DNA of 64,000 nt, taken from the NCBI RefSeq assembly GCF_006740045.1, contig NZ_AP019749.1, positions 2,995,001 through 3,059,000 of the forward strand, read 5' to 3'. The notes below the pieces were generated by a model. The model made no database searches. It worked only from the letters and a program-made list of their open reading frames with translations, and was not told the origin of the DNA. Shown one piece after another: positions 1 through 7,349 of the stretch. Position 1 is the stretch's first letter. The number at the start of each line of letters is the position of its first letter. Made by a program: the position numbers and the translations under genes. This stretch comes from Comamonas terrigena NBRC 13299. Its GTDB lineage: Bacteria > Pseudomonadota > Gammaproteobacteria > Burkholderiales > Burkholderiaceae_C.

Positions 1-1322
1 GCCCCGCTGACATAGGGCTTGGTGGCAATCAGGCCGCCATCGGCGCTCTGGCTCATGCCCAGGGTGTTGGGCAGTTCCACCCACTCGAAGGCATCGATGT
101 AGATGCCCAGGTACCAGCGGTGCAGCGCGACCGGATCCAGGCCGGCCAGCAGGGCGAAATTGCCAATCACCATCAGCCGCTGGATGTGGTGGGCATGCGC
201 GGTCTGCAGCGACTGGCGTATGGACAGCTGCAGGCAGCGCATCCCGGTATCGCCCGTCCAGAACCAGCGCGGCAGCGGCAGGTGGTGGCCCAGAGCGTTG
301 CGGTTCTCGTAGCCCGGCATGCATGACCAGTAGATGCCGCGCACGTACTCGCGCCAGCCCAGTATCTGGCGCACAAAGCCCTCCACCGCCGCCAGCGGGG
401 CCAGACCGCCGCGCCAGGCTGCTTCGGCGCGGCGGATCACTTCCAGCGGCTGCAGCATCTTCACATTCAGCGCAAACGAGAGCAGCGAATGGAAGAGGCG
501 TGGCGCCTGGCTGGCCATGGCGTCTTCATAGTCGCCGAAGTGCGGCAGCGCCTGGGCGATGAAGGCTTCCAGGCAAGCCAGCGCCTCGGCGCGGTTCAGC
601 GGCCAGCGCAGGGCTGCGGCCTGTGGCTGGCCCAAGCTGTCCACACCACAGCGCTGCAGCATTGCCCACAGCCCGCTGTGATCGTGTGTCGGGCGCCAGT
701 CGGGCGGCTGCGGCGGAGTCCCCGGCCAGGGCTTGCGGTTGTCGTGGTCAAAGTTCCACCGCCCGCCTTCGGGCTGGCCGTCGGCATCCAGCAGCAGCCG
801 GTGGCGGCGGCGCATGTGGCGGTAGAAATGCTCCATCAGCCACTGGCGGCGCCCCTGCATCAGTGCGGCCAGCTCGCCACGTGCCGTCAGAAAGTGTTCG
901 CTGTCCACTATGTCCCAGGCCAGCGGCTGGGTGGCAGCCCAGGCCTGCAGTTGGGCATCCAGCCGCCATTCGTCGGGCTGCTGCCATTGCACGCTGCGGG
1001 CACCGTAGTGCCTGGCCAGCGCCTGCAGGTTGCCGGGGATGGACTGGCGGTTGCTGGCACTCTCCAGCGCTACATAGCGCACGCGGTGGCCGGCGGCACG
1101 CAGCTGGCGCGCAAAATCGCGCATGGCCGCAAAAATCGCCAGTATTTTTTGGGCGTGGTGCAGCACGTAGTCGGTTTCCTGGCGCACCTCCATCAGCACA
1201 TAGACCACCTGCGCGTCCACCTGCTGGAACCAGCTGTGCCCGGGGTTGAGTTGGTCGCCCAGCACCAGCCGCAGGGTGCGGGCTGGCCAGGGGGCCGCGC
1301 GGGGGGATGTAGCGTGTGTCAT
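1..1322 (-). CDS. FeS-type photolyase/cryptochrome-related protein (DPRP), 3' end outside window
   Basis: About 440 codons are visible and the C-terminus is cut by the window edge. The protein opens with the DPRP hallmark LRLVLGDQL near residue 20 and keeps the late-family blocks HHIQRLMVIGNF and YIDAFEWVELPNT, followed by GMSQSADGG. These are typical of bacterial (6-4) photolyases and CryB/PhrB proteins, which carry FAD, a lumazine antenna and a 4Fe-4S cluster. One likely cluster cysteine is visible (GDTGMRC); the other three normally lie further C-terminal, beyond the window. Its likely role is repair of UV lesions, probably (6-4) photoproducts. The start codon overlaps the stop of the preceding cryptochrome gene by ATGA (1319-1322), so the two are probably translationally coupled. 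It is the last visible gene of the LitR operon. The family assignment is strong; the exact substrate is inferred. Confidence 0.9.
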   Translation of the reverse strand, partial: MTHATSPRAAPWPARTLRLVLGDQLNPGHSWFQQVDAQVVYVLMEVRQETDYVLHHAQKILAIFAAMRDFARQLRAAGHRVRYVALESASNRQSIPGNLQALARHYGARSVQWQQPDEWRLDAQLQAWAATQPLAWDIVDSEHFLTARGELAALMQGRRQWLMEHFYRHMRRRHRLLLDADGQPEGGRWNFDHDNRKPWPGTPPQPPDWRPTHDHSGLWAMLQRCGVDSLGQPQAAALRWPLNRAEALACLEAFIAQALPHFGDYEDAMASQAPRLFHSLLSFALNVKMLQPLEVIRRAEAAWRGGLAPLAAVEGFVRQILGWREYVRGIYWSCMPGYENRNALGHHLPLPRWFWTGDTGMRCLQLSIRQSLQTAHAHHIQRLMVIGNFALLAGLDPVALHRWYLGIYIDAFEWVELPNTLGMSQSADGGLIATKPYVSG

Positions 1323-2626
1323 GCTGTCCCCCACCGGCGCCGGTAGGTTCCCTGGGGATCCCAGGTGGCGGCCTGTCGCACAGGATCAAAGCGCCGGCCG
1401 CCGCGCGGGTCGGTGCCCCGGCCGGCGATGTAGAGCCAGTTGCCCTGGTTGCTGTAGACGTCATAGTCCAGTAGTTGCGCTTCGAACCATGCCGCCCCGG
1501 CACGCCAGTCGCAGCCCAGCTCATGTATGAGGTAGCTGGCTGCCACCTGGCGCAGGCGGTTGCCCAGGTAACCGGTGGCCGCCAGCTCGCGCATGGCCGC
1601 GTCCACCAGCGGCTGGCCCGTCTGTCCGGCGCACCATGCCGCAAAACGGCGGCCATCGTGCGGCGTGGCGCGCACGGGCCCCAGCCCGCGCGACCGGTAC
1701 AGTGCGCGGCCGTGCTGCAGGTGCAGCAGACGGAAATAGTCGCGCCACAGCAGCTCGAACCACAGCCAGTAGCTGCCATCGCTGGCGCCGTGCATGGCCT
1801 CGAACTGCCGCAGCTGCGCCCACGCCTGCCGGGGTGAGAGCGCTCCCGTGGCCAGCCAGGGCGACCATTTGCTGGAAAAGTCCAGCCCGAGCAGACCGTT
1901 GCGCGTGCGCTTGTAGCTGTGGGGCAGATGCCGGGCCAGGTACTGCGCCAGGTGGGCCAATGCCGCCGCTTCACCGCCGTGCAGCCCGTGCTGCAGATAG
2001 GGGAACGCGCTGCGTCCATCGGCGGCAGGCCCCGACCCGGCCAGCGCGGCCAGGGCCTGTGCCGGAGCATCGGTGCATTGCCCGGGCATGCCGGGTGGCC
2101 ATGGCGGCAGCGCGGTGGGCGACGGCAGGGGCGCGGCAGGCTGCAGCCCGGCGCTTTCAATCGCCTGGCGAAACGCAGTGAAGACGGCGGGCAGTTGCAG
2201 TGGCGGCCAGGGCAGGTGGTCGGGATCGAGCAGGCTGCTGTGCCATACGGTCTGGACCTGCAGGCCTGCCGCACGCAGGTCGGTAACCTGCGCCTGCTCC
2301 TCGGGTGCTGCAATCTCTTCGCACACCACAGTGCGGGTGCCCACGGTCCGTGCGAGTGCCGGCAAGGCGCTGGCAGCAGGTTCGTCCAGTATCCAGAGCG
2401 GGCAGCCCAGATGCTGCAACTGCTGGCGCAACTGCTCCACGGCGGAGGCCCACCAGGCACGCCGGTGCGGGCCGATGCGCGCAAAGCCCCAGCGGGTGGT
2501 GGCATGCACATCAGGCAGGCACACCACGGGCAGCAGGTGCTTCGCCCCCAGGGCACACGCGCGCTGCAGCGCGCGCTGGTCGTGCAGCCTCAGGTCGCTG
2601 CGGAACCAGAACAGCACTGTGCTCAT
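1319..2626 (-). CDS. DASH-family cryptochrome / photolyase
   Basis: 435 aa. The N-terminus MSTVLFWFRSDLRLHDQ is the photolyase alpha/beta antenna domain. The C-terminal half carries the FAD-binding core, with LLWRDYFRLLH, TGQPLVDAAMREL and NRLRQVAASYL. The end GNWLYIAGRGTDPRGGRRF followed by DPQGTYRRRW is characteristic of Cry-DASH proteins rather than class I CPD photolyases. It binds FAD and probably a folate antenna, and repairs CPDs in single-stranded or looped DNA. The open frame extends 78 codons further upstream, but homology begins at this ATG, which overlaps the stop of the DUF2256 gene by ATGA. It is followed by a second photolyase of a different clade in the same operon. Confidence 0.93.
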   Translation of the reverse strand: MSTVLFWFRSDLRLHDQRALQRACALGAKHLLPVVCLPDVHATTRWGFARIGPHRRAWWASAVEQLRQQLQHLGCPLWILDEPAASALPALARTVGTRTVVCEEIAAPEEQAQVTDLRAAGLQVQTVWHSSLLDPDHLPWPPLQLPAVFTAFRQAIESAGLQPAAPLPSPTALPPWPPGMPGQCTDAPAQALAALAGSGPAADGRSAFPYLQHGLHGGEAAALAHLAQYLARHLPHSYKRTRNGLLGLDFSSKWSPWLATGALSPRQAWAQLRQFEAMHGASDGSYWLWFELLWRDYFRLLHLQHGRALYRSRGLGPVRATPHDGRRFAAWCAGQTGQPLVDAAMRELAATGYLGNRLRQVAASYLIHELGCDWRAGAAWFEAQLLDYDVYSNQGNWLYIAGRGTDPRGGRRFDPVRQAATWDPQGTYRRRWGTA

Positions 2627-2784
2627 GGCGGCGCTCCCGGCGATGGCAGCCGGGAGCGCTGTCGACGGCAGCGTTCCGAGCAGTACAGGACCGCATCCCA
2701 GACGCGGGCCCACTTTTTGCGCCATGCAAAAGGGCGCCCGCAGCGCTGGCAGCACTTTTGCGGCAGATGGGGCTTGCGGTGCAT
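2623..2784 (-). CDS. DUF2256 small zinc-binding protein
   Basis: 53 aa, below the usual gene-calling limit. The pattern CxxCGRPFAWRKKW followed by YCSERCR gives two Cys pairs that look like a zinc ribbon or treble-clef site, and it is the signature of DUF2256. This family is repeatedly found beside photolyase and cryptochrome genes; its biochemical role is unknown. It starts 20 bp after the amine-oxidase-like gene and its stop overlaps the start of the DASH cryptochrome (ATGA), so it is almost certainly co-translated. An accessory role in DNA-damage or light response is inference from context. Confidence 0.85.
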   Translation of the reverse strand: MHRKPHLPQKCCQRCGRPFAWRKKWARVWDAVLYCSERCRRQRSRLPSPGAPP

Positions 2785-2804
2785 GGCGCCCTTTCGGTGG
2801 GAGC

Positions 2805-3875
2805 TCAGGCGGCGTGGCGCTGCCCTGCCGCATGGACGGCGCGTGCCAGGCTGCGGCCACTCAGCCAGGCTCCTTCCACGGTGCCGTTGTGCAGCCAGTC
2901 TCCGCACAGGCCCAGGCCAGCCGCAGGGCTCCACCAGCAATCCACATGCAGCGGCTGCGTGGCGTCGGCATAGCGCCAGCGGTGTGAGGTCGCCTGCACG
3001 CTGGCCGGGCTGGGGCCACCGAGCTGCGCGAAGGCCTGCAGCAGGGCTGCAGTGACCGTCTGGGCATCGTCTTCCAGGTGGGCTTCGCTCCAGCTGTGGG
3101 AGGCCTGCAGCAGCCAGGTTTCGGGGCCGCTGCGGCCGGGTTTGCTGCTGTCGCGCGCAATCCAGCGCAAGGGGCTGTGCTCGACGACGCAGCCGTCCAC
3201 CGCCATGGGAACCGGCCCGGCACAGCGCACCATGACCGACCAGCAGGGCCGCATGCGGGCGCTGCGGGCAAGCCGGGCCGCTTCGGGCGCCACGGCTTCC
3301 AGCAGAGCCCCCGCCTGCGGCGCGGGCACGGCCAGCAGCACGGTCCGATAGCGCTGTGGTGCGGCGCCATGCTCGGGGCTGTGCAGCGTCCAGCCAGCGC
3401 CCTCCCCGGCCGCAGTCTGCAGCGGTTCAACGGTGGTCTGCCATTGAAAGCGCACCGGATCGGGCATGTCCTGCATGCCGCGCACCATGTGCGCGGCGGG
3501 GGACGTCATGCGCGGGGTGCCGACAAAGCGCTGCGGCGCGTTGTCCTGCAGCCGAAGACGTTCACCATCGTGGAGCCCTATCCTGCCTGGCCATGGGGCC
3601 GTGGCGCCCGCTTCCTGCCAGCTCCGGACCTGGGCGCGGAAATCGGCGTCATGGGCCTGGAAAGAGGGTGCACCATGGTCGCACTGCCAGTGGGCGCCGG
3701 CGTCGGTGCCGCGCCGCGTGCTCATCCGGCCCGAAGCCCCCCGGCTTTTGTCGAAGACGTGCACGCTGTGCCCGGCCCGGGCCAGAAGCTGTGCACAGGC
3801 CAGGCCCGCCAGGCCGGCACCGATGATGGCGATGGGACCGGACGGGGCCGAGGGGGAAGGAATCGGGATGGACAT
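2805..3875 (-). CDS. FAD/NAD(P)-dependent amine-oxidase-like (renalase-type) oxidoreductase
   Basis: 356 aa. An N-terminal Rossmann dinucleotide-binding motif, GAGLAGLACAQLLARAG, is followed by the acidic end of strand 2 (VFDKSRGASGRMSTRR). The C-terminal FAD-contact segment is AAGLGLCGDWLHNGTVEGAW and the adjoining helix. This layout matches the renalase/NAD(P)-binding amine-oxidase-like proteins often encoded beside photolyase and LitR genes in proteobacteria. The substrate cannot be read from sequence; flavin reduction or redox housekeeping under light stress is plausible. It lies 6 bp after blc and 20 bp before the DUF2256 gene. It has no signal peptide and is probably cytosolic. Confidence 0.85.
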   Translation of the reverse strand: MSIPIPSPSAPSGPIAIIGAGLAGLACAQLLARAGHSVHVFDKSRGASGRMSTRRGTDAGAHWQCDHGAPSFQAHDADFRAQVRSWQEAGATAPWPGRIGLHDGERLRLQDNAPQRFVGTPRMTSPAAHMVRGMQDMPDPVRFQWQTTVEPLQTAAGEGAGWTLHSPEHGAAPQRYRTVLLAVPAPQAGALLEAVAPEAARLARSARMRPCWSVMVRCAGPVPMAVDGCVVEHSPLRWIARDSSKPGRSGPETWLLQASHSWSEAHLEDDAQTVTAALLQAFAQLGGPSPASVQATSHRWRYADATQPLHVDCWWSPAAGLGLCGDWLHNGTVEGAWLSGRSLARAVHAAGQRHAA

Positions 3876-3881
3876 GGAACC

Positions 3882-4496
3882 TCAGGGCCGCCCGGTGGGG
3901 TCTGCATGGGTGTGGGACACCCAGATGAACGCATGCGTGTCGATGCCCAGTGCCTTGGCGCGCTGGACAATGCCATCCAGGGTCTCGGGCGGCAGGCTGG
4001 TGTCGCGCGCCAGAATCCAGGCATAGCGGGTGTTCTCGCCCACGACCAGGGCCCAGCGGTAATCCGGGTCCAGCGCCACCACGTGGTAGCCACCGTAGAA
4101 CGGGCCGAAGAAAGACACTTTCAGCGAAGCCGTGCTGGCGGCCCCTGTGAACAGGGCTTTGCCCGTGGCCTCACGCCACACGCCGGTGGCAGCGATGCGG
4201 CCACGGTTGACCACCTGGACGCTGCCGTCCGGCTGGGGGGTGTAGCGTGCCGAGACATTGTCCATGCCGCGCTCGAACGCATGGTCCAGGCGCGCCAGCT
4301 CGTACCATCGCCCCTGGTAGCGTGCAAAATCGAATCCCTGGACGGGCTGCATCCCCTGCGGAGGATGGGTGTTGGCACAGCCCGTCAGCAGGGCCGTGCA
4401 GGCCAGACCGATTGCCAGCCAGCACAGCAGCCGTGCGTGCAGGGACCAGGCGGTCGGCCCCCAGGGCCGTGTGCGTCGCAGAAGAAGCATGGTCAT
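3882..4496 (-). CDS. blc: bacterial lipocalin Blc, outer-membrane lipoprotein
   Basis: 204 aa. The N-terminal hydrophobic segment ends in the lipobox LLTGC, so it is a lipoprotein. The lipocalin structurally conserved region is present as YQGRWYELARLDHAFERG, followed by VSARYTP and the later FFGPFYGGYHVVALDPDY block typical of Blc. Blc binds lysophospholipids or fatty acids and is linked to membrane repair under stress. Of the two ATGs, the one at 4496 is preferred because an AAGGA motif lies about 10 bases upstream. This ATG overlaps the stop of litR (ATGA). Membership of a light-induced operon fits repair of photo-oxidised lipids, which is inferred. Confidence 0.9.
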   Translation of the reverse strand: MTMLLLRRTRPWGPTAWSLHARLLCWLAIGLACTALLTGCANTHPPQGMQPVQGFDFARYQGRWYELARLDHAFERGMDNVSARYTPQPDGSVQVVNRGRIAATGVWREATGKALFTGAASTASLKVSFFGPFYGGYHVVALDPDYRWALVVGENTRYAWILARDTSLPPETLDGIVQRAKALGIDTHAFIWVSHTHADPTGRP

Positions 4497-5500
4497 GTTC
4501 TGGTGGTCCTTGTGTTGTGTGTTTCAGTCTCCCGGCGCCGCCAGCGCGCCACCGCACCGGGAATGTTGGTCAGCAACCCCACCGGCACGACACCGGCGAT
4601 GGGGTGCCGGTAGAGCGCGGGGCATGCGCCGCCGACCCACAGCCCGAGCGGCTGCGGCAGCTGGTTGCGCAAGGCCTGGAGGTTGTCCAGCACGAGGGAT
4701 TCGGGGTGCACGCTGCTGAAGCTCAGGGCGATGAGATCCACGTGGTGGGCGTGCGCTGCGTGCGCCAGATCCTCCAACGGTGTCTGCGTCCCCAGCGACA
4801 CGCAGCAACAGCCTTCCAGCGTCAGCAGGGCTTCCACCATGAGCAGGCCCAGGCCGTGCTGCTCCGGCGGCAAGGTGGTCAAAAGCACTTTGGGACGCCG
4901 GGCGCTGGCCAGGGGAGCGAGCGAGGCAATCGTCTCCCGCAGCAGGGAACCGATCACCTCGGTGTAGAAATGCTCCTCGAACACCTTGAAACGCCCTTGC
5001 ACCCAGGCTTCACCGACGGCCTGGTTCAACGGAGCGAGCAGCTCCGTGACAAACGGCGCCACGCCCATGCGCAACTGGGCATGTGCCAGGGCATGGCGCA
5101 ATGCCTGGGGTGAATGCCCGGCAATCAGGTCCAGGAAGTCGGATACGGACTGGGCGGGCGGTGCGACAGCATTTTTTGTCCTGGACAAATCAGACAGGTC
5201 GTTCACGGAGGTTTCGGCCAGCAAACGTGCCAGCGCCTCTGCGCCGAGGCCGACCACCTTGCCTGGACGCATGCCTGCATCCAGCAGCTGCCGAATCTGC
5301 CTGAGCCGGGCAACCTGGCTGGCGGCATACACCCTGTCTCCTTTGGTATCACGCAAAGGCTGCGGAAAACCATAGCGTTTTTCCCAGACGCGCAGCGTGT
5401 CCTTGGCAATGCCGGTTTCGCGTTCCACTGCAGCGATGTGCAGCATGGAAGCGCCATCCTGCACGGATGGACTGCAATCGGACGGGGCAGAGATAGACAT
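4493..5500 (-). CDS. litR: LitR/CarH-type MerR regulator with B12-binding photosensor domain
   Basis: 335 aa. A MerR winged HTH lies at about residues 15-90 (ETGIAKDTLRVWEKRYGFP), then a helical cap, then a cobalamin-binding Rossmann domain. Two diagnostic elements of AdoCbl photoreceptors are visible. One is W166-x9-E176-H177 in the four-helix bundle (the Wx9EH motif). The other is the ExHxxG loop with E213, H215 and G218, where the His would be the lower axial ligand. CarH/LitR proteins repress in the dark and release DNA when green or blue light breaks the Co-C bond. It heads the operon it presumably controls. Start ATG 5500 is used; an internal ATG would still keep the HTH. No strong Shine-Dalgarno is seen. 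Confidence 0.9.
   Translation of the reverse strand: MSISAPSDCSPSVQDGASMLHIAAVERETGIAKDTLRVWEKRYGFPQPLRDTKGDRVYAASQVARLRQIRQLLDAGMRPGKVVGLGAEALARLLAETSVNDLSDLSRTKNAVAPPAQSVSDFLDLIAGHSPQALRHALAHAQLRMGVAPFVTELLAPLNQAVGEAWVQGRFKVFEEHFYTEVIGSLLRETIASLAPLASARRPKVLLTTLPPEQHGLGLLMVEALLTLEGCCCVSLGTQTPLEDLAHAAHAHHVDLIALSFSSVHPESLVLDNLQALRNQLPQPLGLWVGGACPALYRHPIAGVVPVGLLTNIPGAVARWRRRETETHNTRTTRT
5175..5189. promoter_or_regulatory. perfect 7-1-7 palindrome inside litR, candidate operator
   Basis: TTTGTCC-T-GGACAAA is a perfect inverted repeat about 310-325 bases inside the litR coding region. It has the same TGTCC/GGACA core as the two boxes on the litR promoter. This may be an auxiliary LitR site allowing looping or a road-block. 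That role is inference. Confidence 0.4.
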
Positions 5501-5523
5501 GGTCAATTCAGGGAATAGGTCAA

Positions 5524-5557
5524 ATTGTCTAGGACAGAAATGAGTTTGTCCAGTACA
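5524..5557 (-). promoter_or_regulatory. litR operon promoter with two overlapping operator boxes
   Basis: On the minus strand TGGACA (5552-5547), 17 bp, then GACAAT (5529-5524) make a plausible sigma70 promoter giving a ~17-base leader. Two similar boxes, TTGTCTAGGACA (5525-5536) and TTGTCCAGTACA (5546-5557), lie exactly 21 bp apart, about two helical turns. They cover the -10 and -35 respectively, as expected for a repressor that blocks RNA polymerase. Assignment to LitR is inferred from position. Confidence 0.5.
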
Positions 5558-5783
5558 TTGATTGTTACAAAGTTGGGCGCCACCTCGGTACGCGGTGCCC
5601 GCCGACAGCAGCGGAGGCCCTGGCACAACGGGGAAAAACCGCTGCAAGCCTGGCCCGCCATGCCCTTCTTTCAGGGCGCAGCGGAAGGCAGGTTGTACCG
5701 GTGAAGCCGGGTCCGGCCGTGGATATAGCGCTTTTTCAACCGTTCTGATGAACTGATTTTTTTCTTGAAGACCAGGTTTTCCA

Positions 5784-7349
5784 ATGTCAATCAAAAACAA
5801 GTTGCTATTGTCTTTTGGTCTTTTGATGCTGATTCTGTTTGGACTTTCCGGGATGGCCATGCGCACCATCGCCTCCACCCAGGAAAGCTTCGAGCACTTT
5901 GTATCCAACGATTTCCGGCGGGCCGGTCTGGCGCGCGAGGTACAGGCTGCGGCCGATGCCCGTGCGGTGGCTGCCCGCAACCTGCTGCTGGTCTCGGAAG
6001 ACGCCGATATCGCGGTGGAAAAGCAGGCCGTGGCGCAAGCCCACGAGCGGGTGCAGGAGCGTCTGGGGCGGCTGCGCACCCTGGTGCAAGCACCGGAAGT
6101 CTCCAGCGAGGAGCGCGCGCTGTTTGCTGCCATGGAGCAGATCGAGGCGGGCTATGGCCCCGTGGCACTGGCGATTGTCGAGCTGACCCTGCAAGGCCAG
6201 CGCGAAGCGGCCATCCGCAAGCTGAGCGATGAATGCCGCCCGCTGCTGGCCGAATTGATGCGCAGGACCAGCGCATACGTGGCCTACATCCGCGTCCAGG
6301 GCGATGCCAACGTGGATGCGGCAGCACGTACCTATGTGTCCGAAAAGACGTTTCTGCTGTCAGCCTGCGGCCTGGCCCTGGTGGTGGCGGGGGTGCTTGC
6401 CTGGCGCATCACCCGCAGCCTGACGCGTGCGCTGGGCGCCGACCCCTCCGAGCTGCGGGCGGTGGCCCAGCGCGTGGCAGCAGGCGAGTTGAGCGAGGTC
6501 GCGCTGGATGTGGGAGTGCACCACAGCAGTGTGCTGGCCTCGCTGGCAGATATGCAGATAGCCCTGGCACAGATCGTCCGCGGGGTGCGCTCGTCGGCAG
6601 AAACCATTGCCGCCAGCTCGGCGCAGATTGATTCGGGCAACACCGATCTGGCACAGCGCACCGAACTGCAGGCTACGCGGCTGCAGCACAGCGCGGCGAC
6701 CATGGCACAGCTGCACGGCACCGTGGAGCAGAACGCAGAGCATGCCCACCAGGCCACGGCACTGGCGGCGACCGCCAGCCGGTCGGCAGAGCATGGCGGC
6801 CAGGTGGTTGGCGGCGTGGTGCAGACCATGGAGGACATTGCCGCGGGCTCGCGCCGCATCGGAAGCATCATCGGCGTGATCGACGGGATTGCCTTCCAGA
6901 CCAATCTGCTGGCCCTCAATGCTGCCGTGGAGGCCGCCCGCGCGGGCGAGCAAGGGCGCGGATTCGCCGTCGTTGCAGCCGAGGTGCGCATGCTGGCACA
7001 GCGCAGCGCAGAAGCGGCCAAGGAGGTCAAGCAACTGATTGATGCCAGCATGGGCAAGGTGGCACAGGGGGTGGAGCAAGTCCAGGACGCCGGGGCAACC
7101 ATGGGGCAACTGGTGCACGAGGTCAAGAGCGTGGCGTCCCTGATCCGCGAAATCAGCACGGCGTCGCGTGCGCAGACACAGGGGATTGGCGAAGTGACCG
7201 TCTCGGTCTCGGAACTCGATCTGGCGACCCAGCAAAACGCCTCGCTGGTGGAGGAAATGGCGGGAGCGTCGGGCAGCCTGCGTGATCAGGCGAACCGCCT
7301 GATGGATGCCGTTGCCCTGTTCCGTACCGCCCGCAATCCCATGGCATGA
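5784..7349 (+). CDS. methyl-accepting chemotaxis protein
   Basis: 521 aa, transmembrane chemoreceptor. TM1 is at residues ~7-26, followed by a ~165-residue periplasmic helical bundle (4HB/Tar-like, rich in Ala/Glu helices), TM2 at ~190-208 and a HAMP-like segment ([10 protein letters not shown] to ~260). The long cytoplasmic coiled coil has the highly conserved hairpin tip [20 protein letters not shown] near residues 365-390, which contacts CheA/CheW. There is no NWETF pentapeptide at the C-terminus, so methylation would depend on CheR/CheB acting without tethering. The ligand cannot be predicted. No other che genes are nearby, so it is an orphan receptor. It is divergent from litR across a 283-bp spacer. 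Confidence 0.93.

Follow-up and report, generated by a model that had tools for sequence, protein, structure and literature searches.

A cobalamin-dependent regulator of the LitR/CarH family heads an operon of eight genes in Comamonas terrigena NBRC 13299, and it probably represses this operon until light releases it, from two DNA boxes in the promoter and from a third one, an auxiliary operator, written into the codons of its own gene. The operon occupies the minus strand at the beginning of the window, i.e. the whole stretch of 64,000 nucleotides that was analysed (contig NZ_AP019749.1, positions 2,995,001 to 3,059,000 of the forward strand), and runs out of it at its 3′ end.

The scheme that we propose is as follows. 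In the dark, LitR loaded with adenosylcobalamin (AdoCbl) would occupy the two promoter boxes, covering the −35 and −10 elements, together with the third box, about 350 bp downstream within litR. This inner box would tighten dark repression, either by bridging or by blocking the elongating polymerase. Green or blue light would break the Co–C bond and take LitR off the DNA. After release, LitR would be made along with a cry-DASH, an iron–sulfur (FeS) (6-4) photolyase, a renalase-type flavoprotein, a lipocalin, a DUF2256 protein and two oxidoreductases. As far as DNA can tell, the scheme is partly supported by the conserved pocket motifs of LitR, by a corrinoid adenosyltransferase encoded in the same genome and by a conserved box lying over a sigma-70-like promoter. 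That a whole clade has an auxiliary operator in the linker codons of its sensor and a light release that dispenses with a histidine cap, the boxes perhaps also placing a chemoreceptor under light control, is a more tentative extension, to which we give somewhat less than an even chance.

The sensor and its upper ligand

LitR scores above the Pfam cut-offs for MerR_1 (50.6 for 21.6), B12-binding (33.9 for 32.1) and B12-binding_2 (23.7 for 23). With the NCBIfam CarH equivalog model it reaches 114.4 bits for a cut-off of 400, which places it among the CarH-like LitRs and outside CarH proper. Nor is it a class II LitR, a group defined by the lack of a functional B12-binding Rossmann domain: PF02310 is above its cut-off here. 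A first-pass annotation, made from the letters of this DNA, had recognized a sensor of the LitR/CarH type by W166-x9-E176-H177 and E213-x-H215. Both motifs are indeed present and align with Thermus CarH: W166/E176/H177 and H215 fall on its WHRGEIGVAEEH and GERHEIG stretches, facing W131/E141/H142/H177 as we counted them from the chain numbering. These four residues are named as AdoCbl contacts in the CarH literature. Wx9EH and ExHxxG are kept in all of 111 distinct LitRs, the set of those near the C. terrigena protein, which also delimits the residue counts given below; one LitR alignment took in 14 LitRs. The D/ExHx2G motif, with the lower axial histidine and a distal pair of glycines, is found at E213, H215, G218, G290 and G291, and the GxxxP of the published light signature at G237..P241. 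The host genome, a single contig of 4.67 Mb, encodes this LitR as the only match of that kind, the corrinoid adenosyltransferase and, elsewhere, one additional FAD_binding_7 gene.

Some features of the protein weigh against the proposed light release. The GxxH of the published light signature reads PxxH in LitR, its first glycine being a proline. V167 replaces H132 of Thermus CarH, the upper cobalt ligand after light (PMC10442372), and histidine follows the tryptophan in none of the 111 LitRs, where this position is alanine (46), methionine (35), leucine (11), valine (7), isoleucine (6), serine (5) or threonine (1). Moreover, the H132A variant of Tt CarH stays mostly tetrameric in light, according to the same source, which also cites an earlier report of its disassembly and gives 352 nm for the hydroxo-type spectrum of this variant. 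With no histidine cap in 111 LitRs, release must either differ from the Thermus model or be independent of light. The latter case, in which LitR would sense AdoCbl or some other effector and illumination would not release it, draws on the absent histidine and on the divided evidence about H132A. Against it stands CtMerR, a tetramer that becomes a monomer on illumination despite arginine at the His132 position (PMC11796333); LitR, moreover, retains its pocket motifs, and the operon encodes repair enzymes that use light. We consider a LitR blind to light unlikely.

We still regard control by light as likely, through an end state other than the bis-His one; for the operon it is what the family suggests. 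The upper histidine exists in many, not all, myxobacterial CarHs (PMC9304148), and its lack is already known elsewhere; new is a whole clade without it, a natural His132-less family that could show whether release by light requires the bis-His state.

The boxes of the litR promoter

Upstream regions of litR relatives were compared for enriched words (77 of 81 regions; L063, L113 and L125 had no anchor and L121 was too short). The top-ranked words, GACAAA and TTGTCC with their complements, are arranged as a palindrome, TTGTC-N3-GACAA, exact in 53 of the 77 regions, for a mean of 0.025 in shuffled sequences; none of the 200 shuffles had more than one. If one mismatch is allowed, the count rises to 70, for 0.9 in shuffles. 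This palindrome is the probable DNA-binding sequence of LitR.

Two such boxes, 21 bp apart, make up the promoter of C. terrigena litR (Table 1). Box 1 contains a −35-like hexamer, the GACAA of box 2 forms a −10-like hexamer with the next T, and the resulting TGGACA-17-GACAAT is the only promoter-like site in positions 5100-5800 (0.3 in shuffles). A second site 21 bp upstream is a feature of the host clade: the pair T[AG]GACA-N17-GACAA[TA] occurs in 14 of the 77 upstream regions and, within the clade, in 27 of 32 loci (with some genomes entered twice, under two handles). It counts against the assignment that the boxes of C. terrigena itself depart from the palindrome, box 2 by one base and box 1 by two. 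The extended box TGTMCTRGACAA has exactly three matches in the genome, all at litR and within 381 bp: the two promoter boxes and one inverted site inside the gene. TnnACA is found in each of the three, in the inner box on the opposite strand; it is the core of the CarH operator repeats (PMC9304148).

Two published operator designs were compared by eye with this promoter and rejected. For the Pseudomonas-type site T(G/A)TACA-N12-TGTA(C/T)A (PMC9758184), it offers TGTACT and TGTCCT 21 bp apart, the wrong spacing. For the tandem 11-bp repeats of CarH, the two promoter boxes do share TnnACA, yet at a distance of 21 bp and with no good middle repeat.

Table 1. Features of the litR operon and its surroundings, in window coordinates (zero and negative positions lie beyond the window edge)
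Feature	Position	Strand	Description
methyl-accepting chemotaxis protein (MCP)	5784..7349	+	divergent neighbour of litR; 4HB_MCP_1 and MCPsignal
promoter box 1	5546..5557	-	TGTACTGGACAA; contains -35-like TGGACA (5547-5552)
promoter box 2	5525..5536	-	TGTCCTAGACAA; GACAA and next T give -10-like GACAAT (5524-5529)
litR	4493..5500	-	335 aa; MerR domain, four-helix B12-binding_2, B12-binding Rossmann domain
inner box	5176..5188	+	TTGTCCTGGACAA on +, TTGTCCAGGACAA on coding strand; encodes L-S-R-T
Blc-like lipocalin	3882..4496	-	ATGA overlap with litR; Pfam Lipocalin_2
bacterial renalase-type flavoprotein	2805..3875	-	NAD_binding_8/Amino_oxidase; matches 4zcc, E 1.8e-56
DUF2256 small protein	2623..2784	-	53 aa; Pfam DUF2256
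cry-DASH	1319..2626	-	TIGR02765, 414.9 bits (cut-off 317); DNA_photolyase/FAD_binding_7
FeS-type (6-4) photolyase (FeS-BCP/CryPro/PhrB)	1..1322, to -246	-	gene 6; 522 aa; DPRP domain
short-chain dehydrogenase/reductase (SDR)	-965..-267	-	gene 7, beyond the window
TIGR01777 oxidoreductase	-1900..-998	-	gene 8, beyond the window; TIGR01777 322.2 (cut-off 207.35)

The box inside litR

The third box lies in the linker between the MerR and B12 domains, 349 bp from promoter box 2 and inverted with respect to the promoter boxes; the exact match to TGTMCTRGACAA is at 5177-5188. Apart from the residues that the box encodes, the litR linker is poorly conserved. Twenty-five of the 111 distinct litRs have either the linker LSxT or the palindrome at this place, and all 25 have LSxT; codons played no part in the selection, other than through the palindrome as the second way of entry. 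The leucine is TTG in 24 of them and the threonine ACA in 23, codons whose shares elsewhere in the same genes are 16% and 12%. The codon-entropy, flank and wobble analyses used 24 of the 25 (L056, close to L055, was left out). Of 108 conserved columns (at least 22/24), that of the leucine has the lowest codon entropy, and none of the other conserved leucine or threonine columns has TTG or ACA as its majority codon. Just before the box, the codon ends in T in 22/24 sequences, a T that goes with 8 of the 10 amino acids found at this codon, for a background of 14% wobble T elsewhere. The conserved core reads TTTGTCCA-N-GACAAA, and no base of the flanks (−34 to −2 and +14 to +42) is conserved equally with the box. 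Because of this codon choice, and because the box has outlived a decayed litR in the genome G203 (see below), we take the inner box to be under selection as DNA.

Several points count against an auxiliary operator. The inner box belongs to one clade only, with the LSxT linker in 25 and the exact palindrome within the coding sequence in 18 of the 111 litRs. The codons were counted in related species, so that binomial values overstate their significance. Finally, the distance from promoter box 2 to the inner box ranges from 347 to 393 bp in the clade loci that have an inner box, with no fixed helical phase. Phase-locked looping was rejected as unsupported, these spacings covering all phases of 10.5, and their variability leaves the choice between bridging and roadblock undecided.

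Two other readings of the inner box have to be weighed. It might be the operator of an internal promoter serving the downstream genes without litR, since the upstream box of the clade does overlap a promoter-like hexamer pair. However, the scan of 5100-5800 gave no promoter besides that of litR, and within about 40 bases of the inner box the 24 sequences have neither a conserved second box nor a conserved −10-like hexamer, which makes an internal promoter quite improbable. About as improbable is the idea that LS(K/R)T is kept for the protein, as a hinge or for an interaction, with rare codons that slow translation between domains and a merely coincidental likeness to the promoter boxes. The motif is indeed positioned between the two domains of LitR and, in all 24 sequences tested, in frame (a weak argument, as they were picked for LSxT). 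Yet its codons spell the promoter palindrome, beyond what rare codons alone would give; the wobble T ahead of it is kept over many amino acids; of the exact genomic matches to the extended box, three out of three are at litR; and in G203 the box persists outside the LSxT frame. The auxiliary operator, selected as DNA, thus remains the reading that we prefer.

In G203, at locus L198 (G203:C51, about 11.9-12.7 kb), litR has decayed and the operator boxes are retained. The other seven genes of the operon are 72-82% identical to those of C. terrigena and the divergent MCP gene 85%. Exact copies of promoter box 2 and of the inner box persist, promoter box 1 is one base off, and the inner box, when read from the leading ATG, is in a frame that differs from that of LSxT. 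The same genome has a second litR, on a different contig, which presumably runs the operon. Less favourable to selection on the box, the remnant retains an open frame of 246 codons; the case for its origin from litR is made by its position, its promoter, its start and an alignment that is weak and owes part of its score to the promoter; and the window of the box is one of 31 in 1008 that keep at least 12/13 bases in the alignment.

The box in genomes

Across the genus, all 16 genomes with litR contain TTGTCYWRGACAA, and each of them has a site at litR; of the 37 genomes without litR, 3 contain it. These last, which have one box each, and the boxes within unrelated open reading frames (ORFs) would fit a regulator other than LitR, an explanation that we regard as very improbable given that every litR-bearing genome has its box at litR and that TnnACA is also the operator core of CarH. 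Boxes lie within ORFs at L183, L184, L185, L187, L188, L191, L192 and L194, which we take as chance, and between ORFs at L190. It does weigh against our scheme that the palindrome TTGTCNNNGACAA, taken by itself, shows no enrichment in the C. terrigena genome (4 places, 5 in the control), one place being the inner box and three lying away from litR. A wider regulon was rejected: with up to one mismatch, TGTMCTRGACAA has 42 genome matches for 55 in the control.

Genes of the operon

The six genes described in the first-pass annotation were retrieved by an ORF check, all on the minus strand and in place, with real ATGA overlaps at 4493, 2623 and 1319 and with 6 and 20 bp at the two remaining junctions. 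The operon does not stop there, however: gene 6 extends 247 bases beyond the window edge, and the SDR and TIGR01777 oxidoreductase genes continue it on the same strand, with gaps of 20 and 32 bp, before an ORF of the opposite strand. Hence a unit of eight genes, not six; its gene spacing suggests a single transcript. Pfam matches bear out the families proposed for the sensor, the lipocalin, the flavoprotein and the DUF2256 protein, and the flavoprotein can now be specified as a bacterial renalase. The two photolyases of different clades are two distinct types, one being a cry-DASH and the other a (6-4) photolyase of the FeS type. The latter is close to the PhrB/CryB structures, and four of its cysteines align with cysteines of 4dja that we take to be the ligands of the FeS cluster. 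As for the lipid branch once ascribed to the operon, its basis is the lipocalin, which is Blc-like while scoring below the curated cut-off of the Blc-type model.

Distribution among relatives

At E 1e-20, relatives of LitR occur in 83 of 200 genomes of the family and in 16 of 53 of the genus, C. terrigena included. In the named collection at least 587 stretches encode one, of which the best 80 were kept; the nearest named LitR among the matches listed is that of Comamonas terrae (71%). The operon is patchy in these 80. C. denitrificans (L051) has seven of the eight genes as a block, without the lipocalin. C. granuli, Brachymonas chironomi and an Alicycliphilus metagenome-assembled genome have six, with a photolyase-family gene, 28-30% like cry-DASH, instead of the latter. 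A few other named stretches combine litR with the genes for DUF2256, the FeS photolyase or both. In most of the 80, none of the other seven genes was found in the DNA covered, at the BLAST cut-off used. At L052, L055 and L056 the photolyase-family gene (28-30% like the cry-DASH of the window) precedes DUF2256 in the place of cry-DASH; because of this replacement, the pair made of DUF2256 and the FeS photolyase looks like the more stable unit.

In many relatives, litR is divergent from genes for an FAD oxidoreductase, DUF1365 and CMAS (cyclopropane synthase), an arrangement that resembles the pmlR1 cluster of Pseudomonas (PMC9758184). A first clustering of neighbouring ORFs, blurred by antisense ORFs in this GC-rich DNA, was used only to choose proteins for Pfam.

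Relation to known systems

LitR shares with CarH of Thermus and Bacillus (class I LitR) the MerR domain, the two B12 domains, Wx9EH and ExHxxG. CarH is a dark repressor whose operator overlaps a promoter (PMC9304148, PMC8156234). Unlike CarH, LitR has no histidine after the tryptophan, its box is a palindrome where CarH has direct repeats, and its operon has photolyases instead of carotenoid genes, plus the extra box within a gene. The class II LitRs of Pseudomonas (PplR/PmlR) go with light-induced clusters that contain phrB, cryB, FAD oxidoreductase, SDR and UfaM genes (PMC9758184), a content that resembles that of the present operon. By contrast with LitR, these regulators have the four-helix B12 domain only, are switched by a short LOV protein and use the site TGTACA-N12-TGTACA (PMC9758184). 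In Vibrio cholerae, the predicted operon MerR (VCA0056)-phr (VCA0057)-VCA0058 likewise couples a MerR-type regulator to a photolyase and is light-induced; VCA0057 is a cyclobutane pyrimidine dimer (CPD) photolyase, unlike those found here, and B12 goes unmentioned in the text covered (PMC5241685). A regulator of this kind beside photolyase genes is thus already published, for Pseudomonas (PMC9758184) and for the Vibrio MerR-phr operon (PMC5241685). CtMerR, which like LitR lacks the upper histidine and is nevertheless disassembled by light, shares 25% identity with TtCarH in the DNA-binding domain (PMC11796333). A literature search, which covered few subscription papers and so leaves absence unproven, found neither an intragenic CarH/LitR operator nor a study of LitR in Comamonas.

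The inner box brings to mind another arrangement. The lac operator O2 is an auxiliary operator within the first gene, about 400 bp downstream. It lies in a structural gene, whereas the inner box is in the regulator's own gene, where looping is hypothetical. If our scheme is correct, an operator overlapping the coding sequence of a photoreceptor dictates residues of its linker, as codon choice and a decayed gene keeping its site would suggest, and dark repression by a B12 photoreceptor becomes testable through silent changes. Promoter and intragenic boxes together provide a ready test of how B12 light switches keep genes off in the dark. B12 light control would also reach, beyond carotenoids, to a DNA-repair operon in bacteria of the Comamonas type.

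Chemoreceptor genes near litR

An MCP gene is divergent upstream of litR in 8 of 11 named loci with an inner box (12 loci, one with too little upstream DNA; tblastn, E 1e-8), the others being L055, L056 and L057. The other 68 named loci, many of them on short contigs, have one (L118, downstream). The MCP is a possible second output of the boxes, under light control.

MCP genes recur near litR at L050, L051, L052, L058, L059, L061, L064, L065 and L198, either directly divergent from it or about 3.6 kb upstream, beyond other genes. Away from litR, L181 (5325-5558, G231:C48) has two litR-type boxes 221 bp apart, flanked by an ORF of 322 aa with no Pfam match and by a CHASE3-HAMP MCP. At L179 (7839) and L180 (11763), a photolyase-like gene is preceded by an extra box; some 3.6 kb separate this box from the litR promoter and include an MCP gene and, at L179, also an EAL-domain gene (Pfam).

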